Source of the DNA: Cavenderia fasciculata
Lineage: Eukaryota; Evosea; Eumycetozoa; Acytosteliales; Cavenderiaceae
Length of the DNA stretch: 64,000 bases
NCBI RefSeq assembly: GCF_000203815.1
Contig: NW_004457729.1
Coordinates: 868,674 to 932,673, forward strand
Direction: 5' to 3'
A model generated the notes under the pieces. It made no database searches. It saw nothing but the letters and a program-made list of their open reading frames with translations, and had not been told where the DNA came from. Below are positions 1 through 61,143 of this stretch, in pieces. The position numbers and the translations under genes were made by a program. Positions within the stretch are counted from its first letter, which is position 1; each line of letters opens with the position of its first letter.

Positions 1-1938
1 GTATCTTTGAGACGGCCACCGAGCGTCTCCAATCGATCGTCTACAAGTCACAACTACTCTGTCGTGTATCGACCAGCAAGAATGCACTCGAGTCATTGAC
101 ATGCTCGTGTTTCAACGATGAGTCGAATGACAGATGCTTTGATTCGATCGAGTCGTCGTCCAACACCATTCTCAACCCATGCAATGGTATCACCACAACC
201 AACTTTCTCAATAACCATGCGACTGTCCAGTTTGTCGCCGACTCTATTGCACCAGACACTTGTGTCTTGGTGGGTATTGCCGATCTCTACTCGGACCAGT
301 TTATCGCCAAACGTGTCTTTGCTCTCGCCTCTTCGTTTGTCACATATATTCCACCCGAAGATTACTCGGTCTATAACGGTGCCGGTGCCGTCGTCGGTCG
401 TGTCATATCCGACGGTGTCTCACTGCGTATCTTTGACGAGGGTGTCCAATCGATCGACATTTGTATCACACAAACCCTCAAATACGATGTCGACCAATAC
501 CCAACCATCGACTTTGCACTCATCGATCCCGACTCTGGCAGTATCACCGCGTTTGGATGTACGTTTAATGGATCTATCGTCCCACCCATAGACCCATCCG
601 AAACAACCAACCCAACCGGTGACAAAAACAATAATAACCAAAAATGTTGTCGTGTTCCCAAACCAGAATCAATTGGCACCAATGACTATATCATGATTGC
701 TCGTACCGACGATTGGGAAACAGCTCCCTTCCAACCATTCTCTGACAGCGACACTCGAATGATCCATACCCTTGCAGCACTTTTCCTCATCCTAACAGTC
801 TTTGGATTCGCTCAACTCCTTCATTTCTCTTATTGTTTCTTTATTAAAAAGGAACCTTATAAAGTAGTTTATTTATTATTTTTCTTTTTATTTTGTTTTT
901 CTCTAAGTATGTTAAAAAAAAAACAAATCAAACAAATGGAATGTATAAATATTATTAATATTAATATTAATATATTATTATTCTTTTTTTCTTTTTTTTA
1001 TCTTAATAATTATAGTTAGATGTATATATTTCTTTATATTACCAAGTAATCAATTACCAAGTGGACCAAATGTAGGAGAATATATTCTTGTAGTATTACC
1101 AACCTTTTTATACTTTACATCGTTTACTATAGTCATTACGATTTGGTATATTCTTAGTAACACCAATATCACAATGTACCAAAACGTATTCAAGGTGATC
1201 AACAAATTAATTCTAGTCTCTAATTCTGTACTCTACCTCTTCTTTGTCATCATTGTATTGGTGTTTAATTTCACCAATGAAAATGATCCACCAACTTGTG
1301 GTGGTAGAAAGGTGACTTCATTCTCAAATACTACACCTCAAAATGTAGTATCGATCTTGTATGCAGTTATTCAAGCACTATTGTCACTAGTCATTGGTAT
1401 TGCATTTATCTACTTTGGTCTAAAGATCTATCGTCAATTCTCAGCCATTCATGCCAAAGACTCACAACAAAGTACTCAAAAGGCCAAGACATTTACAATG
1501 GCTGCCATCTGTTCGATTGGCTTTGTACTACATTGTATCTTTATCATTGTACTGGTAAGTGTCAGTCCTTCCAACATTAATTTCAGTTTTGCCGGTCTCT
1601 TGATCACAGAGTTGGTTCCAGTTGCCACTCTCTTTATCACCTACAATCAAATCCCACTGTCAATGCCTAAATTCGTTTCAAAGACCATCAAGATATCAGG
1701 TACCACCTCTCAATTCACTTCTGGTGGTAGCGGTAACAGTGGTAACAGCGGTATTCATCTACGTGAAAGTGTTGCTCGTGGAAGACACCACAATTCAACA
1801 AGTACAAGAGATTATAGTGGTAGTACAAGTGGAAACAGTAGTATTAGTAGAGAAACTACAAATTCTTCAAATGGCAGTAATAATAATAATAATAGTAGTA
1901 GCAGTAATAGTCCAATTGTCTATCTTGACAAAAAATAA
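1..1938 (+). CDS. Seven-helix membrane protein, GPR137/TOM1 (THH1/TOM1/TOM3)-like, 5' partial
   Basis: The reading frame is open from base 3, so the start lies outside the window. The exons are <1-906 and 1016-1938, joined by a 109-base GTATGT...TATAG intron that keeps the frame; about 608 residues are visible. The first ~260 residues form a Cys-containing, probably luminal or extracellular domain that I do not recognise. Seven hydrophobic segments follow, beginning LAALFLILTVFG, VVYLLFFFLFC, YILVVLPTFLYF, INKLILVSNSVLY, VVSILYAVIQALL, TMAAICSIGFVLH and INFSFAGLLITEL. The RCIYF...LPTFLYFTSFT pattern across helices 2-3 resembles the plant TOM1/TOM3 and animal GPR137 group. Members of that group sit in endolysosomal or vacuolar membranes. 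The C-terminus is a Ser/Gly/Asn-rich, probably cytosolic tail. The fold call is moderate and the function is unknown. Confidence 0.6.
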
Positions 1939-22088: not shown

Positions 22089-22829
22089 ATAAATAAATAA
22101 ATAAATAAAATGGAATATATTAATATATGTTTATACATACCTTAAATGGGGATTGATCAAAGGATTGATCAATCAATTGTCCGGAGGAAAGAAAGATGAA
22201 GACAAACTTTCAATCGACTATATATTGCAAATCCATTGAATGGAGCTTAGCTTCATCTTTCTTCTTTGTATGGGCTGAGAGTTTTCCGTGATTCGAATTG
22301 AGAATTGTCTTGAAATAAACCTACTTATGAATTAAAAGAGTAAAAGTTGAATCTATTGAATTGTGAGTATTTGAAACTGTGAACTGATCTATAGTTTTAG
22401 TAGAGAATAAAGTGTTTGAGGTCAGAGTTGAGTTGGGTGGGATTCTCTATGTGAGAGTCTTGTTTTGAGTAAATCCGACCGGATTAGGGTCTGATAGTGA
22501 AGTGTCTTTTACCTTTTTTGATTAAACATCCTACTGCATTAATATACCTTGTACCTGTATGTCTGTGTCTTTCTCCCTCTTCACAGGAATTACGATACTC
22601 TCCCTTATTCTTGTCATTTCATTCTTTTAAACACAAAAATAATTATAATTATAAATAATAACAACAAACTTTCATCAAGTTCACCTCACACCTTTGCATT
22701 TGTCATATTTTTCAGCAAAAGAGATATTTTATATTAATTAAAGAGTTGAAGAAAAGTTCATTGAATTAAATATACATATATTTATTTATTTATTTATTTA
22801 TTTATTTTATTTATCAAGTACTTTCAAAT
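22089..22829. other. Intergenic region between the DONSON and lyase genes
   Basis: An (AATA)n tract follows the DONSON stop and a (TTTA)n tract (22779-22808) precedes the lyase start. A 13-base inverted repeat pairs 22189-22201 with 22251-22263 around a 49-base loop, and direct copies of GATTGATCAA lie at 22151-22172. No open frame is convincing. Confidence 0.5.
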
Positions 22830-24560
22830 ATGGAGAATATAAAGATAATATCAAAGATTATAAAGAATTCAGGTATTGAACAAACATTTGGAGTGGTAGG
22901 TGTACCGATCACCAATGTAGTATATCAAATGCAAAAGGATGGATTACCATTCTACGGCTTTAGAAATGAACAGGCTGCATCGTATGCAGCTAGTATCGTT
23001 GGTTATTTGACTAGAAAGCCTGCCCTCTGCTTTACAGTGTCTGGTCCGGGTCTGATTCATGCGTTGCCTGGTGCTATCAATGCACAAGCAAACAGCTTCC
23101 CATTGGTTGTGATGTCGTCGTCTCCCAACCCTGCCGACCTCAACAAGGGCAGCTTTCAAGAGTGTCCTCAGTTTGCTGCCGCCGTACCATGCTTCAAGAC
23201 ATGCTACTATCCACCAACGATCGAGCAGTTTGCAACCTACTTTATCAGAGCGGTGCGTGAGAGTGTGTCGGGTCGTCCCGGTCCTGTCTACATACAAGTG
23301 CCATCCGTGTTGATGCAAGGAACGGCTCAAATCAACGATGCAAACAAATCATTGATTGAAAACATCGATACATATGGTATCATCGAGTACGACGAGATCC
23401 CACGCCCCGTTCCACAAAGAGGTCAGATTGAAGAGGCATTGCAAATGTTGATCAGTCGTGCCAAGCGTCCTCTTATCATTGGTGGAAAGGGTGCAGCCTA
23501 CAGCGGTGCTGAGAAAGAGTTGCGCAGACTAGTCGATGCCACCAAGATCCCCTTTTTGCCATCACCGATGGGCAAGGGTATTGTGTCGGACGAAGACGAG
23601 TACAGCGTTGCCAGTGCACGTTCGGTCGCGTTGAAACGTGCCGACTATATTCTCGTGTTGGGTGCACGACTAAACTGGATGTTTGGGTATGGTGTCAATG
23701 GATTCGCGTCAGATGTCAAGTTTATTGTCGTCGATATCTTTGCAGAGCATCAGTCCCATATTCCAGCCAACTCTTTATTCCTTCTCGGTGATATCCGTGC
23801 GACACTCGAGGAAATGAACTCGGTCTGCGAGACTGCGTTCAAGGCGGCCGTCCACAATGGATCCGGTCAAGATAGACAGAGCTGGATGAAGGAGTTGACC
23901 GACAAGGCTGGCGCCAACGCATCATCACTCAAAAAGCAAATGGAAGAGCCACAACAAGACGGCCAGCAATTGACCTACCACCAAGTATACAATGTACTCG
24001 CAAGACATATTCCCAAGAACGCACCATTTGTCAATGAAGGTGCCAACACGATGGATATCGGACGTGTCTGTATCCAGCACACCGACCCTCGTTGTCGTCT
24101 AGACTGTGGTTCTCTATCGACCATGGGTGTTGGCGTAGGCTATGCTATCGCCGCATCGGCAGTCTATAACAACAAGAGAACCGTCTATGCCGTCCAAGGA
24201 GACAGTGCATTTGGATTCAGTGGCATGGAGATTGAGGTAGCCGTTCGTTATCGCCAACCCATCCTATTCATCATCATCAACAATAACGGTATCTATGAAG
24301 GATTGGACACTATCCAAGACCACTCTCCCACCGCCATCCCACCCACTGCTCTCACCCCCAAGATCAGATACGATGTCATGATGCAATCATTTGGCGGTCA
24401 AGGCCACTCTGTATCCACCACTGACCAACTCCAAGACATTCTCTCCAAACTCCCTAGAAACAAACAAACCAATGAAATCCAACTTGAAGATCCAGTCCTC
24501 ATCAATGTCTTTATTAAACCATCAAGTGTTTTACCCAAAATTTTAAATGCAGCTCATTAA
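22830..24560 (+). CDS. hacl1: 2-hydroxyacyl-CoA lyase / oxalyl-CoA decarboxylase family enzyme
   Basis: This is a thiamine-diphosphate enzyme of 576 residues in a single exon, close to the 578 of human HACL1. It keeps the catalytic Glu in FRNEQAASYAAS, the SGPGLIHALPGA loop, the KGAAYSGAEKELRRLVD and PFLPSPMGKG middle-domain blocks, GARLNWMFGYG, and the ThDP/Mg site from GDSAFGFSGMEIE to NNNGIYEG. HACL1 cleaves 2-hydroxyacyl-CoAs in phytanate and 2-hydroxy fatty-acid alpha-oxidation; bacterial oxalyl-CoA decarboxylase shares most of these motifs. The C-terminus is ...NAAH rather than a PTS1 tripeptide, and I see no PTS2, so peroxisomal import is not supported. I favour HACL1 from the SGPGLIHAL loop, but substrate assignment is uncertain. 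Confidence 0.85.
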   Translation: MENIKIISKIIKNSGIEQTFGVVGVPITNVVYQMQKDGLPFYGFRNEQAASYAASIVGYLTRKPALCFTVSGPGLIHALPGAINAQANSFPLVVMSSSPNPADLNKGSFQECPQFAAAVPCFKTCYYPPTIEQFATYFIRAVRESVSGRPGPVYIQVPSVLMQGTAQINDANKSLIENIDTYGIIEYDEIPRPVPQRGQIEEALQMLISRAKRPLIIGGKGAAYSGAEKELRRLVDATKIPFLPSPMGKGIVSDEDEYSVASARSVALKRADYILVLGARLNWMFGYGVNGFASDVKFIVVDIFAEHQSHIPANSLFLLGDIRATLEEMNSVCETAFKAAVHNGSGQDRQSWMKELTDKAGANASSLKKQMEEPQQDGQQLTYHQVYNVLARHIPKNAPFVNEGANTMDIGRVCIQHTDPRCRLDCGSLSTMGVGVGYAIAASAVYNNKRTVYAVQGDSAFGFSGMEIEVAVRYRQPILFIIINNNGIYEGLDTIQDHSPTAIPPTALTPKIRYDVMMQSFGGQGHSVSTTDQLQDILSKLPRNKQTNEIQLEDPVLINVFIKPSSVLPKILNAAH

Positions 24561-24811: not shown

Positions 24812-27740
24812 TTATAAATGTCCTCCACCACCATTGAAAAATATTGGAGGTGAATCATCGTTTTGATTATTATTATTATTATTGTGTTGATCATTATAAT
24901 GTTGTTTATCTGGTTGATCATTTCCATTTCCATTTCCATTTTCTTTTTCTTTTTCTTGTTGATTGGTGGATGTACTAGTACAACCATTGTCGACTGATGG
25001 TCTATGTACGAATAAACCCATATCACCTTTTCCTTTAACATCTATAACTTGTTTTTCGAAATCATATTTATCAGATACTAGGTTATAGGTGGTTTCACTG
25101 ACACTAACCCTATCAGGGATACCAAGTGATTCCATTCTACTCGCTAAATTAACTGCATCACCCCATAAATCAAAGGTGAACTTCTTTTTTCCTATTACTC
25201 CTATTACAACATCACCAGTATTTATTCCAACTCTTAAATGAAGGTCATAGCCATATTTTTGATTTACCCTAAAATTTAAATTAAATATTAATATTTATAT
25301 TCTCTAATGTATATATTTACAACCAACTGTTTCTATTATCTATTTTCTTACCTTTTAACACTTTCTAAAATATTTAAAGCAAAATTTAAAGCTTTGTTTG
25401 CATGATATACAGTTCGATCCCTCAGATAGAAATTGATTCCATCACTACTATTACTTTTTCTCATGTCTGGTGAAAAGCCTTCCACTTCGTGCCATGGAAG
25501 TCCGCAAACCACCATGTAGGAATCGCCAATTGTTTTGATTTTCTCCAAGCCCATCGATTCAGAGATATCGTCAAATGTCGAGTATAAACGATTCAACATC
25601 AATACCAAATCCTTGGGGGAATAGGTAGATGAAATCTTTGTGAAATTAACAATGTCTGCAAATATAATCGATACTCCTGAACATTCTTCTGCTACATATA
25701 ATTCTCCTTCTTTCATTTTGTTACTTATTGCTATAATTTAATATTTTAAAAGAAGAAAGTTAAGTTATGGATTAATAATTCAAGGAATGATCTATTTGAT
25801 CTAAAAGTTGGACATACGGATTGGTAAAATTGAATTTAATAATACATCTGATTTCTTTCTTTCAATATCCAATTCAGAAGCCAAAAGAATTAATTTATCT
25901 CTTATTCTTTGATTGGCAAATGAAGTGACTCCAATGATGAGAAAACAGGTAAATAGCGATAGAATGGAAACGGTTAGAGCAATGCTATCCTTGTCGTCGG
26001 CTATAATGAGTCCCTTGTCTACAAATGTGTAGCTGACTGACAACATGCCAACATAATGCATTCCACATACACCCAATCCCATAAACAATCCAGACACTAG
26101 ATGCTGAAGATGTGAAAAGGAGAATGTGGCAATGTTGAGAGACACTATTGATGATATCCATGCAATGATAAACGAGAGAAACACCAGTCCTCTGTTATAA
26201 GACATCATTGCATTCATTTGCATACCGGCCATACCCAAATAATGCATACTAAAAATACCACATGATGTAAAGAAACTTGCCAATATCAACCGTATCACTA
26301 CATTTTGGTTGTATTGTGATGGGTCCAACATCGATGACATTCGTTTCTGTGATTTTAATTCTCGTTTGAGTGTGTTGTTGTCATTGTTGTCATCTAGTTC
26401 AAACAAAGAACTTCCAATCAAAGGCGAGTATTTCCCACTCTGACTATCTTTTCTTTGCTGTTGTTGTTTAATGTCAATGAGCTCATTTATATTTACAATG
26501 TGTTGAATATCACTTTGACTTAATGGTATAATTCCTTTTTTTGGTATCTTTTTCTTATTATTTCCATTATTACCATTATTATTATTATTATTATGATTGT
26601 TATTATTATGATTATTGTTATTATGATTGTTATTATTATTGTTGTTGTTATGATTATTACCATTATTATGATTATTATTATTATTATTATTATTATGATC
26701 ATTTAAATTAATATTATTCAAATTACATTCAAACAATGGTGAGGATGAATGAAAGGGTGAATTACTATTACTATTACTACTACTATTACTATTGCTATTG
26801 GCAGTGTCACCAGACACTAACCGTCTATTGATAATTGGTGAGCTCGTGATCGATGTCGATTGATGATTCAACATTGTCATCTCTATGCAATATGATTGAT
26901 GATCTGACTGTAGTACCGTATTACCATCCAATGAAAATACATTGCCTATTTGTTGTTGTTGTTGACAGTGTTGTTGATGATTATGATCCATATCAATGAT
27001 CATTGATTCCTCTATAGTATTGTATTGTTTTGATTTTCTTCGATTGAGGTAATTCACAATGACTTGTGGTATCTCGACCGTCAACAATAGTAATCCCAAT
27101 CGACATGATAACACTGCCACTGCACCCGAAAGAAAAGTTAACCATTTATCATATGAAACAGGTACATTAAAATGACATGCCATCATTCCAATGAAATGCA
27201 TACTCCTAAAAAATGAAACAAATCCAAAATTAATATTTATATTTATATATTTGTAACAAAGTATGTATGTATTTAATAGTTTCATACCAAATAGTAACAC
27301 CACCAAGTGAAACTGAACCAATTGTTAGGAAAAGTTGTCTAAATATTTTGTTGCTGGTACTTGTCAATTGAGCAAGACATTGGAGTGATGTATAGGACCC
27401 GAGAACTGAGACCAAGTAGGATAACACGATTAATTCTTTAGACCAATATGTGTTGATCTCCATCACTCCTCCTCCAGACCCATCAGCGCTGTCTATTGAA
27501 GGTGTTGCCAAAAAAAAGTCGCCACCGGAAGAAATACTACTATCCATCGTACTAGTATCGATTTGAATTTGGCTAGCATGTTCAAAAACAACAAAAGAAG
27601 GCAGGGAATATGATTTTGTTTGATCTATTATTACCTCCTCTGCCAATCCTCTTGTTGCTACTGTTACTGAAAATGATGAACCGCTTGAAGGTGGCAAAAA
27701 TGATAATAGAATTATTATTAAACCTAATTCCATTGTAATC

Positions 27741-27742
<2 letters not shown>
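24812..27742 (-). CDS. MHYT-domain transmembrane adenylyl cyclase
   Basis: The exons are 27742-27288, 27205-25818, 25730-25352 and 25268-24812, giving 892 residues. A signal-like start is followed by a membrane region with three MHYT-type motifs: WSMHFIGMMACHF (on the first splice junction), FSMHYLGMAGMQM and CGMHYVGMLSVSY. MHYT domains are proposed copper-based gas or redox sensors, best known in bacteria. An insert of roughly 230 residues rich in Asn/His lies between motifs 1 and 2. A short helix leads to LLNSILPIPISNKMK and a class III cyclase domain. Metal ligands Asp640 (FADIVNFT) and Asp684, purine selectors Lys680 (KIKTIGDSY) and Asp774 (TFDLWGD), and Asn781/Arg785 are all present. Lys plus Asp predicts ATP, not GTP, as substrate. 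One chain has both half-sites, so a homodimer is expected. The Met at 27733 is an alternative start. Confidence 0.88.
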
Positions 27743-32533: not shown

Positions 32534-35500
32534 ATGTCAACTTCATTTACTACAAATGATGAATACCAATTTGATGCATTCGAAGATGGTTCTTCAAGTA
32601 TGTTGTTTGTTTGTTTGTTTGTTTGTTAGAAGAGTATACTTTTAGTTCTAACTTTTCATTGATTCTATTATTACTTTTCTATTTTTATTAGAATTGGTTG
32701 GAGAACAACAATTAACAAAATTAAATCAATTTGCTGTTGATTATGCACAACAGATTTGGAAGATTGAAGAAGCATTGGATGAATCGATCAATGAATCGTC
32801 TGATTTTAATGTGGATCCCGTGTCATTGTACATTCGACCATACGAGCAACAAGACATTATAGAGTTGATCAAGACCGAGCACAAGATCTTTAACAAGGTG
32901 ATGCTCGTCTTTGCATCGTTGTGCAATCAGGTGCGTATCGTCAAGGAGACGGCTGAACTGCGTTTCTACCAGCCACTCATTGTGTTTGGCGAGATTACTG
33001 GTGAGGCAAGTGAGGGTGACGTGCAAGAAGAGGTGGCTCGTCTGCTACCATTCATGATTGATCTGTCGGCACTGGTCAACCGATGCTACAGCATTGCACG
33101 TAACTTTGTGTCACAATTGGCGTCGATCTATCAGTCGTCGCCAACCACCTACACCAAGTTCTTTAAAAACACGCATCTCCAAACTGTGTTTTATTCAATG
33201 GCCGACTTGTTTGCCGTTCTGATCACATTGGACCAGATCATTGTCAACAACCAGGCACTTGACTCTGCATGGGGACGTTACCAACGTATGGTCAAGAGTG
33301 TGCGTGCCGAGCCGGGCAAATACGGCGTTGCCGAAGAAGAGAAGCTTTGGCAGCTCGAGAAGCTCCTCCTCTCACTCAAGGGACAGTTGTTGGAAGGTTA
33401 TATCTTCCAGACTTGCGTGCAACAAGAGTTTGACTTCCCAGGTGTCGTCGATGTACGTCAAAACAAGCCGCTCAAGGCCGAGTTTGTGCACAACCTCAAG
33501 GCCATCTTTGGCATGCTCCAAGCCAAGATGATGGACCCGTCCGAACTGTACCTGCGCGAGCGTTTCCCCGGCATGATGGGTCTCTACACATTCTACGTGT
33601 CCATCTTTAAAGATATTACCGACAAGTCATTCTTTAAGCAGATCTGGGAGCTCATTAAAAAGGTGCCAATGATCTCCATCTACAACAATGTCTTTTGGTA
33701 CCCCGCTGACTTTATTTTCAAGCTTATGCCCGGTATGATGAAGATTATCGGTACCGTCGACGTTGTCGGTATTCGTCGCGAGTACCTCAAGGTTGTAGAT
33801 CGTGAGTTTGCCGGTCGTGTCAAATCCTACTATCTTCAAGTCAGTCGCTGGATGGTACGTATGGAGTCAAGCAACCTCAACCGCGGTACCACCTTTTGGG
33901 ATGCCAATCTATCACGTATCGGTCAGATTATCCAAGGTGTTCTCCTCTCCTACCACATTAGTCATCTCTTCAAGACCATGATTGGATTGCACATGAACCT
34001 TACTGCACCACTCAAACCATCAGATGTACGTCGTCTCTTCCAGTGTGCCGAGATGCTCAAAGCCATCCAAGGAACATTCCATCGTCGTTCTTCTATGATC
34101 TCTGCTCACATCTCACTCATGACTCAACACTTGACAACCATCATCAACAACAAATTGGATATCGTCCGTAATAGATATACTGGTAAATCAAGTTATTCCG
34201 ACACCGAGTTGGATGTTATCATGGCTCTCACTTTAACATCTGATTTACTTTGTGGTGTTGCAACTCCAGAACGTATCCTAATCATGAAATTATGTTTAAA
34301 TGTTATTTATCAAGCTGTATGTAACAAGATATACAAATATATATTGGATTGGGGTTCTAACCTTTATTTTATTTTATTCTAGAATTATTTAAAGGATCAA
34401 GATATTGAAGATCTTAGACTTCATATTAAAAGACTTGAATTTATTTCAGATATTCACAATCAAATTAGAAAAGTTTGTGATTGTTCATTATTATTTTGGG
34501 CTCGTGATCTTTTCCCAACTTATCTTCAATTTATTTATGAAAATCCAAATCAAGCTTCAAGTATTCAAGTATGTAAACTAAAAAACAAAAACAAAAAAGA
34601 AGATTATTATTATTTACATTTTCTTATTTTATTTTCCTCTTTTTTTAAGTATGCATTAACTGGTATGAAGGATGTTGTATCAATTTTAGAAAAAGCAATT
34701 CATGTTGAAGATCCAAACAAATTAATTGAACTTTATAGAATTGAATTGGAAGATTTAATGGAAAAGTTTATTATCCAACCATTAGGAAAAGACATTGAAA
34801 CCGATCTTCGTCTTCGTATTCATAGTTTCCTCAATGTCGCTGAAAAGGATCCATTCAAGAGTGGTATCAAAGAGTTTGGTAAATTCCTCGAACTCAAGCC
34901 ACTACGTTTCTTTGACAAGACTATCGATATCAAAGCACGTATTGCTCATTACCTCGATTCCACCTTTTACAACTTGAATACTGTAGCTCTATTTGATTGG
35001 AAGACTTACTCTGAAATGAGAAATATGGCTTTCTACAAATATGGTTTAAATCTTTTAGAAGTTCATTTACCTGGTGCTACTCTTGAACAAGTAAGAGAAA
35101 AAACAAACAAAAAAAAAACAAAAAAAAAGAGATATAACACAAATGTATATTTATATATATTAATAACTTTTTATTCTTTTTTTTTAGGGTTTAGATGTTT
35201 TAGAAATTATGAGAAATATTCATATTTTTGTAGCAAGATACAATTATAATTTAAATAATCAAATTTTCATTCAAAGATCATCGAATAGTAAAACACTCAA
35301 TACTATCAATATTACACATGTTGCCAATTCAATCCGTACTCATGGTGCTGGTATTATGGACACAACCGTCAACTTTGCTTTCCAATTTTTAAAGCAAAAG
35401 TTTTCAATCTTTTCAGAATTCTTGTTTGATGATCAAATTAAATCAAGATTATATAAAAATTTAAAGTATGTAAAAAGAAAAAGAAAAAAAAAAAGAAAGA

Positions 35501-44875: not shown

Positions 44876-47168
44876 TTATTGACGGGCATGGTGCTTGAGC
44901 ATCTCTAACGTCTCTAGGATGTTTTCGAGTCCGTGATTGCCGTCTCCTCCAGCAGCAGAGGCAAACACAGAGTTTTTAAAGGGTTGTTGGTTCTTGATGG
45001 GTGTGTTGTCGTCTGACATGTCTTGATCATCGTCATCATCCGAGTTGATGATGCTGTGGATTTGTGACTTGACATTGGTGGTGGTGGTGGCGACGGTAGC
45101 AGTGGCAGTGGATAGACCGCCACTTGAAACAACAAGATTGGGGTGGATGTGAGAAAAGGCAGAAGAGGAGAGAGCCTTGACATAGATGGGTGAGCCCGTC
45201 TCGTCTTCCTTTTCGAGACAACCGGTGATTCTAATCTTGACGGGACGGAGACATTCTTCACGTTCGGCCATCAACTTGTCAAACTTGTCCTTTTCCTCCT
45301 TGGGGATATCGGTACCGTGTTGGTAGGTGATGATCTTGATGACCTTGTCAATCTTTCTCAAGTAACGGTATGGCCATTTACGACGAGTGCATTCCTTGAA
45401 ACGCTTGCACAACATTGACTCTGAAATACCAAGACGTGAAGCTGCCTCCTTTTGTGGAAGTACCAACAGTTCGGTAATATCAATATAGTTTGGATCATTG
45501 TTTGATGGTTGTTGTTGTTGTTGTTGTGATGGAGTAGTTGTTTCTGATAAAGAGTGTTGTAATGAGACTGATGGTTGTTGTGGAGATGGGGAGGAGGAAG
45601 AGGACGAGTTCATTTCATCGTTACTAGCCATCAATGAAAAGGATGAGGTACTTTGAGAGGCACCTGATGAACTCATTGGAGAGAGTGAGGCAAGATGGAT
45701 GGGTTGTGATGGTGATGAAGGTGACGAGGTGTGGTCGTTGCCGCCGTCAGATAGATCAGAAGAGTTGTCTTGGTCGTCCTTTTTACGCTTGTTGTTGGTA
45801 TTGTTTCTAGAGAGGACGTGGAACGAGCTTGAGGTGACCGACGATACTTCTTGGTTGGCACGACCGTCGTTAAACACCTCACACAAGGCAAAGACAAGGC
45901 AGAAGGATTGGTGGAGATGCTTGGAGCTGACTTCACTGACCTTGAGCTTGTTAAAGACGACGAGACCGGTGCGATCGACCATCAACGACTTGATGCCCTG
46001 GAGTACCTCTTGTTTGCCATCCGATTGCTTGGCACTGACTTGCTTGTAGGTAGAGTTGTAAACCAAAGATACCTGGACAACCAATGCGCTGCCAACAGTA
46101 CGATTGTTGATCAACTCTTGGTCAACCATCAATGTTGGTGATGGATGAATATATCTATGGCATACTACTGAATCTGATGGTTGATGTTGAATAGTTAATC
46201 TAAAAAGAAAAAAAAGAAAAGAAAAAAGAAATTAGAATATGTAAAAGATTAAGATTTGATTTGATTTTAACATACTTGTCTCTTGGAGTTAATAAACGGT
46301 GGTTATGGTATTCAACTTGATGGTCATCTGAACTATGGTCTTCAATAATCATATTGGTGGCAGTGGTGACAGTTGGTGATGCAGCAACAGAGGCAGTTGA
46401 GGATGATGGCGATGAAGAGGAGGAGGAGGGGGAAGAGGTAGAGTGTTGAGTAAAGTTTTTGATATTGTCAAGTAGGATGGATTCTCTTCTCTTGAGGTCA
46501 ACCAACTCTTGCATCCATTGATAGATTTGTTGCTTGTTGTTTGGTGAAGGTGACAATGATTGATGTTGTTGTTGGCTATTATCAACGACGACTGGAAGAG
46601 AGGGTGATGAACATGGCGAAGAATCGTGGCTCTTGAAGATAAAAGATGGTGAAGCAGATGATGACAATGGCGATGGTTTGGTACCGGTGGACGTGGTAGT
46701 AGACAATCGTGACTCAAATTGTTTAAAGGTTGGTAAAGAGTGGTCATTGTCAGAGTCGCTGTCATCGTCAATTAAACATTCCGATTGAACGGGATTCAAA
46801 ATATTTAATAATTGTCCATTGTATCCATCTTGTTGTTGTTGTTGTAATTGATCCTTATTGATGTTGGCGATAATCGGTAAATAGCTTTGGTATGGGTTAT
46901 TAAGTAACAATGAGGATGATGATGGTGATGAAGAGGATGATGATAATTCGATTCTTTGCTTTTTGATAATATGATTAGTAGTGCTTGCGTTGTTATTATT
47001 ATTATTGTTATTATTGTTGATTGGCACTGGAGAAGATGAAGGTGAAGTAGATTGATAGCCTATAGATATTGTTGTTGTTGATGTTGGTGGAGCCGCAAGT
47101 AATATACTATTTATGTTGTATGATGGCTTAAAGTTGGGTATCGATATGGGTTGAGATATCTTTTGCAT
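44876..47168 (-). CDS. RWP-RK domain transcription factor
   Basis: Exons 47168-46276 and 46199-44876 join in frame to give 738 residues. The first ~290 residues are low complexity (Ser, Asn, Gln), with a short Gln-Trp-Met segment (IYQWMQELVDLKRRESILLDN) that looks like a coiled coil. A probably beta-rich module of about 110 residues follows (SVVCHRYIHPSPTLMVDQ to HQSFCLVFALCEVF). A linker then leads to the RWP-RK domain near residue 540: LLVLPQKEAASRLGISES, CKRFKECTRRKWPYRYLRKID. RWP-RK proteins are DNA-binding factors of plants, green algae and amoebozoans. The signature is present as KWPYRYLRK. An acidic stretch (SDDDDDQDMSDD) near the C-terminus may be an activation region. The class is clear; targets are unknown. 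Confidence 0.88.
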
Positions 47169-57000: not shown

Positions 57001-60000
57001 ACATCATCAACATCATCGTTATCAGCGTCATTTGGCGCCATGTTATCAACTACACCAAGCGCAGTCGCATTTTCACTCCCTCATCATCATCATACTCCTC
57101 AACCATCAACCTCAGCGCATAGTGGAATTAGAGGCTCAACCTCTTTAATGCCACCTCCATCATCATCAACAACATCAACATCATTATTGTCGTCGTCACT
57201 AAAGACGTCGACTTCATCTTTTATGCCACCACCATCATCTCCACTCAAATCCTCCTCATCGACATCTTTTTCCAATCCCAATAACCACAACAGTATGAGT
57301 AGCAACGGTTTTAGACTTCCGGTCGAAGACAATCCCGATGTATATTACGAGTTTCTAACCAAACCAGAGGCCATTATCAGCCACGTCTCGATGAAGCGAC
57401 TAAGTGAACTCCATCTTGCCCATAAAACTTTACAATCCATTCCAACTACTATTATCAATACTTTAAATTATCTAAAGGTAAGATAAGAAAGAGAGATAAT
57501 AATCAAATCAAAACAAAACAAACTATTCAATTTTACTTACTTATTTCTATTTCTATTTTAGGTATTAGACTTTTCATATAATGCATTACAAGATCATTCA
57601 TCATTAGAGTCAGTATCAACATTGTATGGATTGGAATCACTCAATTTATCATATAATGCATTATCAGACATACCAGCTTCACTTAGTCGACTGGAAAAAC
57701 TCACCAAACTCAACCTCAGTAACAACAATTTTGTAAATATTCCAACCTGTATCTTTCAACTCTTTTCGTTGGAGAAGCTCAACATGTCGGGCAACGTCAT
57801 CGTGTCCATCCCCGAGTCGATCCAGCACCTGTACAAGTCGCTTGCGCATCTCGACCTGCGCAACAACAAGATCACCAAGCTGCCCAAAGAGGTTGGGCTC
57901 TTGGCCAAGCTGCACACTTTGGACGTGTCGGGCTACAACAAGATTGTTGAGTTGCCCGCCTACCTCGCTACGTTGCCCATGCTCGAGAAACTCGAGTTCC
58001 CCGACAGCGTCAAGGTGCCACCTCGCTCGGTCACCTCCAAGGGCTTTAGTCATATCATGGGTCACCTGCGTGACATGATTGACGGTACCGTCCAACTGAC
58101 CGACGTCAAGCTCATCTTTCTCGGCCCGGAAAAGAGTGGCAAGACACAGTTGGTGCGTTCACTCACCAAGTCGTCGTCCAACAAGACCATCAAGATGGGT
58201 AGCATGCGTCGTCACAGCGGGTCAGTCTCGATATCATCGGCTGGCACGACTATTATAAATCCGCGTCTTGATACGCCGCAGTTGGGTGAGTCGGTCGAGC
58301 AGACCGAATGGAAGATCGAGCTGCCCGTCAGCCAGCAACAGCAGCAACAGCCACAACAGACGTTGTCCGTGCCCGTCCAGACTATGCCTGACGCGTCTCC
58401 CAAGACAATGCGCAGCTCCAAGTTGTCCAAACGTGCGGTCAAGTTGATGGCACTCGACTTTAAGTTTATCGGTAGTGCTGTCTACACGAGTACGCATTCG
58501 TTCTTTTTGTCAGAGCGTGCATTCTATTTGATCACGGTTGATATTACCAAAGAGCCGCTGTCACAGCTTGACCTGTGGGTCAACTCGGTCAAGGCCAAGG
58601 CGCCGACGGCACCCATCTACATTGTCGCCACCCACATTGACCACTATGCCGGCGACATTATGAAGGCACTACATCAGATCGAAGGGTTCCTCAACGAACG
58701 TATGCTTGAGGTGACAGGTGTCATTGGAGTCGCCACCAACACGTCGCGCAATATTGACCTCTTGCGCCAAGAGATCATCACGACGCTGGCCAACCAATGC
58801 AACCACTGGTTCTCAGAGCAGACGCCCGCCGTTTACGTACAGCTCGAGAAGCAGCTCGAGGAGGAAGCACGTCGTCGCTCACCGCCCGTCATTGCATGGG
58901 ACGAGTATGTAAATATCGCCAAATTGGCCAACATCACGACACACGAGAAGCTGGTGCGTGCAACCAACACCCTACATCGATGGGGGTCGATCATGTGGTT
59001 TGACGAGGAGAAGCACGGGCTCAACGACCTGGTCATCCTGTCGCCGCAGTGGTTGAGCGACTGCTTTGCCGCCATTGTCATGTCGAAAAACACGCATATC
59101 CAATCCGACTCAATCCTGTCGCTCAAAAAGCTACACCACATTTGGAAGGACCCTGCGATCCCCGGCTTCCTCCACATGAAACTCATCCGTATGCTTGAGC
59201 GTTTCAACATCCTCTTTACACTCAAGAGCAACGGCCAAAACACGTCACTGCAGGATTTGTCGCTGCCATTGTCCGAGGCCAACCGGTCCGTGTCGTCGCC
59301 GCTCCCCACTCTGTCACCTGAGCCCGTTCTCACATCCAGTTCGTTCATTTCAACGTCGTCTACGTCCTCGTTTATGACGTCGATTGTCAATAGCTCGCCG
59401 TCGATGTTGCGCAGCTCCATGAAGCTGCTCAAGCCGGCCACCACCGCCGCTGCAGCCGCCGCGGGCATGTCGTCGGGCGGCAGCTCAGCCAGCACGTCGG
59501 GCAACATCTCGTCATCGTCATCACATGAAAACATTGCGCAGTTTATCCAGGGCACCAAGATCATCGTCCCCTGTCTACTGCCAGCTGCCAAACCATCACA
59601 TCTTGCATCCATGTGGGACACTTGGGGTGGCGAAGACATGCACCAAGTCGGTCGTTACTACACCTTCCTCAACGCTCCCAAGAGTTGTTTTGACCGTCTC
59701 ATGGTTCGTTTCCTCTACACCATGGAACCAATCGTCTACTATGGTTCGGGTATTCTCTTCCGTAAACCTCAAAACATGAAAGACTCGGTCAAGAGTAGTA
59801 TGTCGTCTTGCGGAACACTCGTCGAGTTTGATCACCAAGCTCAACAAATCCAAGTGCGTGTGCGTGGTCACGACTACGAGTCCACGTCCAAGATGTTCCA
59901 GCTCGTGCTCGAAAATGTCGACACTCTTCTCAAGGATCTCGGCATCACACCCTCCAAGACACTGGTGACATGCTCGTGTTCGTTGGATTGCCAGCTCGAC

Positions 60001-61143
60001 AAGCAGACACCCACCTACCCCATTGAAATGGTTGAGTCTGCCTTTGGCAAGGGTGAGGCCTACATCAAGTGCCCCAAGTCGCAAAAGCTCGTGTCGATCG
60101 AGACGCTCTCGCCAGATATTGCCCTCGCATGTCCGTCGACCACCAAGATTGGCACTGAGGAGCTGGCCGGTTTTGTCGAGATTGGCCACGGCGCGTCAGC
60201 CAAGGTGTTTAGAGCGACCCTGCGTGGCGCACAAACCGTCGCCGTCAAGCAGTTTAGTTTGGACCGTATGGACTTGCCCGACGCACACCCTTTGGTCGGC
60301 GGGTCAGGCTCACCCACTCCCAACTCATCGGGACACCACTTTACCCGTGCACCATCCAGCAGCTCGCTATCATCGGCATCATCAGCCGACGAAGCCAACC
60401 AGTTGCAAGGCAAGCTGACAGCCATCAACGAGTTTAGAAGAGAGGTTTGGCTCATGTCAGATCTCGTTCACCAAAATATTGTTCACATGAAGGGATACAG
60501 TTTGGACCCTTACTCGATCGTCATGGAGTATATGGATCTCGGATCATTGTCATCGTATCTCCGTCAAAAGCGAGAGTTGGGCGAGACACTACCATGGGAA
60601 ATTATCCTCAAGATTGCCAAAGACATTGCCAAGGGCATGGCCTTTTTACACAACATTTCACCTCCACTTGTACATAGAGACCTCAAGTCGCCAAACATCT
60701 TGTTGGCCACCACTCCCACCGAACCATTCATCGTTGCCAAGATATCAGACTTTGGCCTCTCTAGAACGGTCGTCCAAAGTTTTGTTTCAAAGGTTGTCGA
60801 CAATCCAACGTGGCTCGCCCCCGAGGTGATCAGCCAACGAGAATACAACGAAAAGGGAGATATTTACAGTTTGGGTATCATCCTCTGGGAGTTGTACCAC
60901 ATGCAGCTACCATTTGAAGAGTTTGGCATTAAATTTATGTCTACCCTCGAAGACAGTATCATCTCTGGTCTCCGTCCAACCATCAACCCTCAATGCAACG
61001 CAATGTATTCTTCATTGATTACAAAATGTTGGAATGAAAACCCTCAATCCCGTCCTTCTTTCCCTACCATTGTCAAGGCTTTAGAAGAAATTCATGATAA
61101 CATCAAGAAAACTTCTTCTTCTTCTTCTTTACAAAATAAATAA
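54061..61143 (+). CDS. Roco protein kinase: DEP-DEP-LRR-Roc-COR-TKL kinase
   Basis: Exons 54061-54096, 54154-54375, 55713-56129, 56620-57477 and 57562-61143 join in phase to give 1704 residues. Two DEP domains lie at ~13-155 (CFVGREAVSWLIDHH; GFISYVD; HHFKDDGSFYAFTD) and ~226-470 (SCFSGQQIIDWLSEN; DVYYEFLT), each split by low-complexity inserts. Leucine-rich repeats follow (~485-680). Roc has an intact P-loop GPEKSGKT (699-706) and ATHIDHY, but its G3 motif reads LDFKFIG instead of DFAGQ. COR occupies about 900-1370 with a Ser/Ala-rich insert. The TKL kinase has GHGASAKV, Lys1407, HRDLKSPN (Asp1551) and DFG Asp1574; a Ser-rich insert follows Lys1407. It belongs to the Dictyostelium QkgA/Roco8-like group and to the family of human LRRK2; exact orthology is unproven. 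Intron 2 is exceptionally long. Confidence 0.9.
54376..55712 (+). other. 1337-base intron within the first DEP domain of the Roco gene
   Basis: The donor GTAAGATT follows ...LLKQ and the acceptor ...TTCAAAG precedes GFISYVD, so both exon edges fit a DEP domain in phase 0. The other introns in the window are about 55-110 bases apart from one of 490 bases in this same gene. The intron is not simple repeat: it has mixed composition at 54420-54960, then pyrimidine-rich and CA-rich DNA resembling promoter or leader sequence at 55140-55640. No coding frame in it is convincing. Confidence 0.6.
56130..56619 (+). other. 490-base intron between the DEP domains of the Roco gene
   Basis: The donor GTATGTAG after ...NKDE and the acceptor TTTTAG before LFQLGLD keep phase 0. 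The intron contains a G-rich patch (GGGGGGGGAGGGAG, about 56283-56296) and no convincing reading frame. Confidence 0.7.

Follow-up and report, generated by a model that had tools for sequence, protein, structure and literature searches.

An MHYT membrane domain joined to a predicted adenylyl cyclase in a single gene of Cavenderia fasciculata

MHYT domains have been reported from bacteria and several fungi, with histidine kinase, GGDEF, EAL, PAS and DNA-binding domains as their partners (excerpt of PMC11347149). Fungal MHYT proteins have also been published separately (partial texts of PMC3576715 and PMC4007546), and the statement in a first-pass annotation of the DNA described here that the domain is known mainly from bacteria holds alongside them. 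In CoxC of the bacterium Afipia carboxidovorans, compared here by its published description, an MHYT domain of seven helices, carrying three motifs, precedes an output domain in the cytosol, which is a DNA-binding repressor (LytTR). The MHYT domain is required for the response of CoxC to CO; copper supports this response and is needed for it, Zn, Ni and Co do not support it, and O2 reverses or competes with it (2024; excerpt of PMC11347149). These properties, the copper-dependent CO response and its reversal by O2, have since given experimental backing to the premise of the annotation that MHYT acts as a gas sensor. Deletion of MHYT from MucR and NbdA abolishes biofilm dispersion (excerpt of PMC11347149), and for YkoW of Bacillus it could not be established whether MHYT takes part in perceiving a signal (excerpt of PMC9683572). 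Together with CdgB, these MHYT-GGDEF-EAL proteins resemble the amoebal protein in tying an MHYT input to the synthesis or breakdown of a cyclic nucleotide messenger, but the messenger is c-di-GMP and the output domains come from other families. By a simple motif count, GGDEF and EAL are present in 48 of the 80 best bacterial MHYT relatives of the amoebal protein (47, plus one that also has an H-box-like motif).

Animal soluble guanylyl cyclase, the NO receptor, is a soluble, GTP-using enzyme with a haem H-NOX sensor. It is similar to the amoebal protein in joining a gas receptor, a role that is putative in the amoeba, to a class III cyclase; it differs in its H-NOX domain, which Pfam does not find in the amoebal protein, and in the purine site, where the latter has Lys680 and not Glu. 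Among the adenylyl cyclases of dictyostelids, ACG is, like the amoebal protein, a membrane receptor of one chain that carries a single class III cyclase domain, but its input is CHASE, and ACR (ACB) has six to seven transmembrane (TM) helices, HATPase and receivers (excerpt of PMC4399386). CHASE, HATPase and receivers are all absent from the Pfam matches of the amoebal protein. ACA and ACR, although adenylyl cyclases of the same organism, are built differently, ACA with two cyclase domains as in the ACA-like gene of this genome. The earlier claim that the characterised ACG, ACR and ACA lack an MHYT input is in agreement with these architectures. In the open literature no paper linking MHYT to an amoebal cyclase was found; those dealing with MHYT and adenylate or adenylyl cyclase concern bacteria, judging by titles and the opening lines of abstracts. 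Acanthamoeba has 67 adenylate cyclases (excerpt of PMC5055082). The fusion described below may already be visible in the automatic annotation of protein databases.

The window, i.e., the whole 64,000-nucleotide stretch of DNA analysed, corresponds to C5:868674-932673 of the 31.0-Mb C. fasciculata genome of 21 contigs, and the coordinates given below are those of the window. The MHYT-cyclase gene lies on the minus strand, with its ATG at 27742 and its stop codon ending at 24812, so that the interval singled out in the first-pass annotation is exactly one gene; the single intron-containing gene proposed there was recovered with exact coordinates and strand. Its four exons join to encode a protein of 892 aa that opens with a hydrophobic start and the MHYT membrane domain and continues through a cyclase transducer helix into a complete class III cyclase domain. 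Exon 1 (27288..27742) carries the start codon, the hydrophobic signal-like start, a non-membrane N-terminal region of about 80 aa, TM1, and the first half of TM2; its SYT(A/S)L and G...W agree with bacterial MHYT in the alignment. Intron 1 (27206..27287, 82 nt, GTATGA...TTTTAG) is followed by exon 2 (25818..27205), encoding MHYT motif 1, TM3, an Asn-rich loop, TM4-TM7 with motifs 2 and 3, and, in its C-terminal part, the transducer helix and LLNSILP, the entry motif of the cyclase; the Met codons of the three motifs are at 27201, 26247, and 26061. Beyond intron 2 (25731..25817, 87 nt), exon 3 (25352..25730) encodes the first half of the cyclase domain with D640 and D684 (metal) and K680 (purine), and beyond intron 3 (25269..25351, 83 nt), exon 4 (24812..25268) encodes the second half with D774 (purine), N781, and R785 (transition state), ending in an Asn-rich tail and the stop codon. 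All three introns are of the GT-AG type, with a GC content of 16-22% versus 32-37% in the exons, and contain 6, 9, and 11 stop trinucleotides, respectively. As many as 24 splice combinations yield more than 850 aa, and the chosen model is not the longest of them; it restores ...GVTIW|SMHFIGM, i.e., the IWSMHFIGM of bacterial MHYT proteins, across the same 27288/27205 junction that had been proposed earlier.

The MHYT part is recognised by Pfam (PF03707) in two stretches at 118 bits against a cut-off of 21 (E 1.8e-34); MHYT and Guanylate_cyc are the only families matching the protein at E <= 0.001. The three motifs predicted earlier (MHF, MHY, and MHY) were found as WSMHFIGM, FSMHYLGM, and CGMHYVGM, starting at residues 154, 472, and 534, and Gly-Met follows in all three. 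For comparison, a scan of GTDB gave at least 598 pattern matches and at least 587 relatives, of which the best 80 were kept; three spaced motifs are present in 77 of these, a set that shrank to 53 once near-duplicates were removed. All 15 columns invariant in these 53 bacterial domains are kept in the amoebal protein, a part of the Met and His invariance being automatic since the rows were picked by the MH..[M/A] pattern. Among columns with one residue in at least 90% of the rows, 27 of 35 are kept, the remaining eight holding small or similar residues, and overall identity to the 53 domains is 27-37%. The main difference is the TM3-TM4 loop, short in the bacterial rows shown (every second row of the alignment) and extended in the amoeba by an insertion of about 245 aa with 25.5% Asn (residues 201-447, approximately 26320..27060, minus strand). 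The hydropathy threshold is passed by six of the seven TM helices, TM2 being placed by alignment alone. Hydropathy and the published MHYT model (excerpt of PMC11347149) suggest a cytosolic position for this loop and one close to the outer face for the motifs, the C terminus being placed in the cytosol. In NCBIfam a histidine kinase model, whose cut-off is 450 bits, matches at 82.5 bits, with its best stretch within the MHYT part. A search by sequence for a solved MHYT structure returned one chance match (E 1.1).

The output part, residues 628-827, matches Pfam Guanylate_cyc at 180.5 bits against a cut-off of 21.9 (E 3.2e-53). It is one cyclase domain, not two, and the complete class III cyclase announced by the annotation was confirmed; residues of the metal, purine, and transition-state classes are all present. 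The single chain carries D640, D684, K680, D774, N781, and R785, positions being read from the sequence; we take D640 and D684 to be the metal residues and N781 and R785 the transition-state residues. Among cyclases of solved structure, adenylate cyclases of types 9, 5, and 8 score highest by sequence. Lys680 and Asp774 are found where they had been placed earlier and form the ATP-type pair: this Lys and Asp are conserved in class III adenylyl cyclases, with Glu replacing Lys in guanylyl cyclases (excerpt of PMC4215837). The enzyme is therefore predicted to produce cAMP.

The best explanation of this architecture, held with middling confidence, is a membrane receptor adenylyl cyclase encoded by a single gene, in which cAMP synthesis is gated by a gas. 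The chain would have its N terminus outside the cell and its cyclase in the cytosol; the Met-His-Tyr/Phe clusters of TM2, TM4, and TM6 would bind copper near the outer face, and O2 or CO, possibly NO, at the copper would shift TM6 and TM7. The shift could then travel along the ELDIERKKSDVLLNSILP transducer helix and alter the pairing of two cyclase domains, switching the conversion of ATP to cAMP. Every chain holds all catalytic residues, so two identical chains would be expected to pair and form two active sites. In a dictyostelid the likely target of cAMP would be PKA, hence encystment or spore formation; in Polysphondylium, encystation is blocked by the loss of PKA or the joint loss of AcrA and AcgA (excerpt of PMC4399386). 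The proposed role would be to couple the air supply to the control of encystment or sporulation by cAMP and PKA. The domains and residues are seen in the sequence itself, whereas we infer the copper, gas, gating, its direction, expression, and biological role, the mechanism by homology. Counted against the gas-gated reading are the loop of about 245 aa interrupting the sensor, the eight of 35 well-conserved MHYT columns that differ, the placing of TM2 by alignment, and the published finding on YkoW. Tentatively, then, the protein can be put forward as a eukaryotic copper-based membrane receptor converting surface O2, CO, or NO into cAMP and PKA-driven encystment or sporulation. No example of a eukaryotic copper-based gas receptor with cAMP output was found in the open literature or in the sequence searches. 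If true, MHYT sensing would extend into a eukaryotic second-messenger receptor, gas sensing at the surface would tie the air supply directly to the messenger governing dictyostelid development, and the protein could serve as a basis for a cAMP tool switched by gas.

Alternatively, MHYT could serve solely to anchor the protein in the membrane and to dimerise it, while the cyclase would be constitutive or regulated otherwise, with the Asn-rich loop, the N-terminal segment, or phosphorylation as candidate regulators. The membrane location of CdgB has been attributed to its MHYT domain (excerpt of PMC11347149), and in the bacterial class III cyclases recovered by the searches the same position is taken by other modules, in many cases by different membrane helices; the cyclase therefore tolerates many inputs. 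Such a role is nevertheless rather unlikely, because three intact Met-His-Tyr/Phe clusters are not needed for anchoring and all the invariant MHYT columns are kept.

A copper-binding MHYT domain might instead report the state of copper or redox at the outer membrane face, with copper loading controlling the cyclase. The conserved residues are of the copper-ligand type and copper is the required ion for CoxC, but copper without CO left DNA binding by CoxC unchanged (excerpt of PMC11347149), and we regard this version as improbable. As to the product, residual guanylyl activity has been recorded at alkaline pH for a class III adenylyl cyclase that shares this Lys and Asp (excerpt of PMC4215837), so cGMP instead of cAMP, or both, has to be weighed; with an ATP-type pair at the purine site and, in the same genome, further genes that resemble guanylyl cyclases by their architecture, this is very improbable.

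That the sensor and the cyclase belong together does not depend on splice prediction, since the three motifs, the last membrane helix, and LLNSILP share one exon. Exon 2 alone (462 aa, 27204-25819) encodes them all, with SELDIERKKSDVLLNSILP at its end, which agrees with the entry region of bacterial cyclases in both its helix and its LL..ILP motif. Against an entry HMM built from 41 bacterial cyclases, exon 2 scored 12.1 bits for the whole sequence and 11.0 bits for the stretch, compared with 2.7 bits for the best of 1,000 shuffled versions and at most 0.9 bits for bacterial MHYT proteins without a cyclase (three of the four listed). The exon 2-3 and 3-4 junctions merely extend the cyclase. 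The content of exon 2 and the Pfam matches uphold the central claim of the first-pass annotation, an MHYT input and a complete class III cyclase in one gene, and the sequence argues strongly for their joining. Two adjacent genes wrongly fused in the model, or a decaying gene, can hardly be credited, with the three motifs and the cyclase entry motif in one open exon and both domains intact down to the catalytic residues.

A ready-made bacterial fusion was sought as a source. Tblastn against plasmids gave 493 records; the sole record covering at least 80% of the query reads as MHYT-GGDEF-EAL and not as a cyclase fusion. The cyclase HMM matched none of the best 80 of at least 587 bacterial MHYT relatives; several of these 80 alignments extend into the query's cyclase half, reaching residue 430/500 at most, at 24-30% identity. 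Queries spanning both parts were run on 1,488 sampled bacterial genomes: 194 of the Cyanobacteriota group, 385 of the alphaproteobacterial class, 369 of the gammaproteobacterial class, 199 of the Acidobacteriota group, 246 of the Actinomycetota group, and 95 of the Methylomirabilota group, the groups being named after the titles of the centre loci. No fusion was found among the best matches inspected; rare or weak ones could escape, as scoring was limited to the top candidates of each genome and the E limits were strict (1e-40 or 1e-45 in all but the Cyanobacteriota group). All eight matches starting before query residue 100 (seven and one among those listed) are without MHYT motifs. In 82 scanned loci, some of which overlap and whose ends may clip long frames, a cyclase-signature frame was present in 78 (33/34, 29/32, and 16/16) and MHYT motifs in none, a single stray MHF occurring in one locus (L160). 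Viral contigs gave no match to six patterns. A ready-made bacterial fusion was not found in the plasmid and genome searches, and one may still exist.

In its own genome, MHYT was found in this gene only (two matches from four candidates). Ten exon-level cyclase matches correspond to the MHYT-cyclase gene and five other genes, defined by frame reading and Pfam on ten frames, whose labels we assign by architecture: ACG-like (L104), with one cyclase domain preceded by a membrane region and no Pfam match to CHASE in its separate frames; GCA-like (L105, C19:488500-497500), a membrane cyclase of two domains whose residues are of the guanylyl type, distinct from the next gene; ACA-like (L106), with two cyclase domains and the sole gene of its kind in the genome; ACR-like (L107), with HATPase, receiver, and cyclase; and one like the D. 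discoideum sGC (L108), with two cyclase domains, AAA, and TPR. Since these five resemble ACA, ACG, ACR, and two guanylyl cyclases, the MHYT-cyclase is predicted to be the fourth adenylyl cyclase of the genome, with an input not described for ACA, ACG, or ACR. Its cyclase domain shares 45-48% identity with the seven top-scoring domains of the cyanobacterial group versus 37% with the ACG-like domain, the former figure being biased upward because the rows were picked as best matches to the MHYT-cyclase protein. In a tree without the first ACA domain (split over exons), the ACR and sGC-like domains, and a broken bacterial row (L124), grouping with the other cyclases of the genome was not rejected (p-AU 0.32), nor was grouping with ACG alone (p-AU 0.25). 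The tree does not settle the origin of the domain, and long branches are in play.

The locus is genuinely amoebal, with introns, Asn-rich tracts, and eukaryotic neighbours (WASH-complex, PI3K, and Roco genes); AAT repeats and Asn tracts are present in the genome. A thiamine-pyrophosphate enzyme at 22770-24560 (+), which presumably resembles 2-hydroxyacyl-CoA lyase, is convergent with the MHYT-cyclase gene at a distance of about 250 bases. The gene for WASH complex subunit 4/7 lies at 32652-35246 (+), and a Roco-family protein with LRR, Roc, COR, and protein kinase domains is encoded at 57562-61140 (+). The bin 58001-60000 has the highest GC content of 32 bins, 54%, the others ranging from 27 to 44%. 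A weak RWP-RK domain match at 44879-46231 (-) is slightly below the Pfam cut-off, and a THH1/TOM1/TOM3 domain match at 949-1935 (+) is slightly above it.
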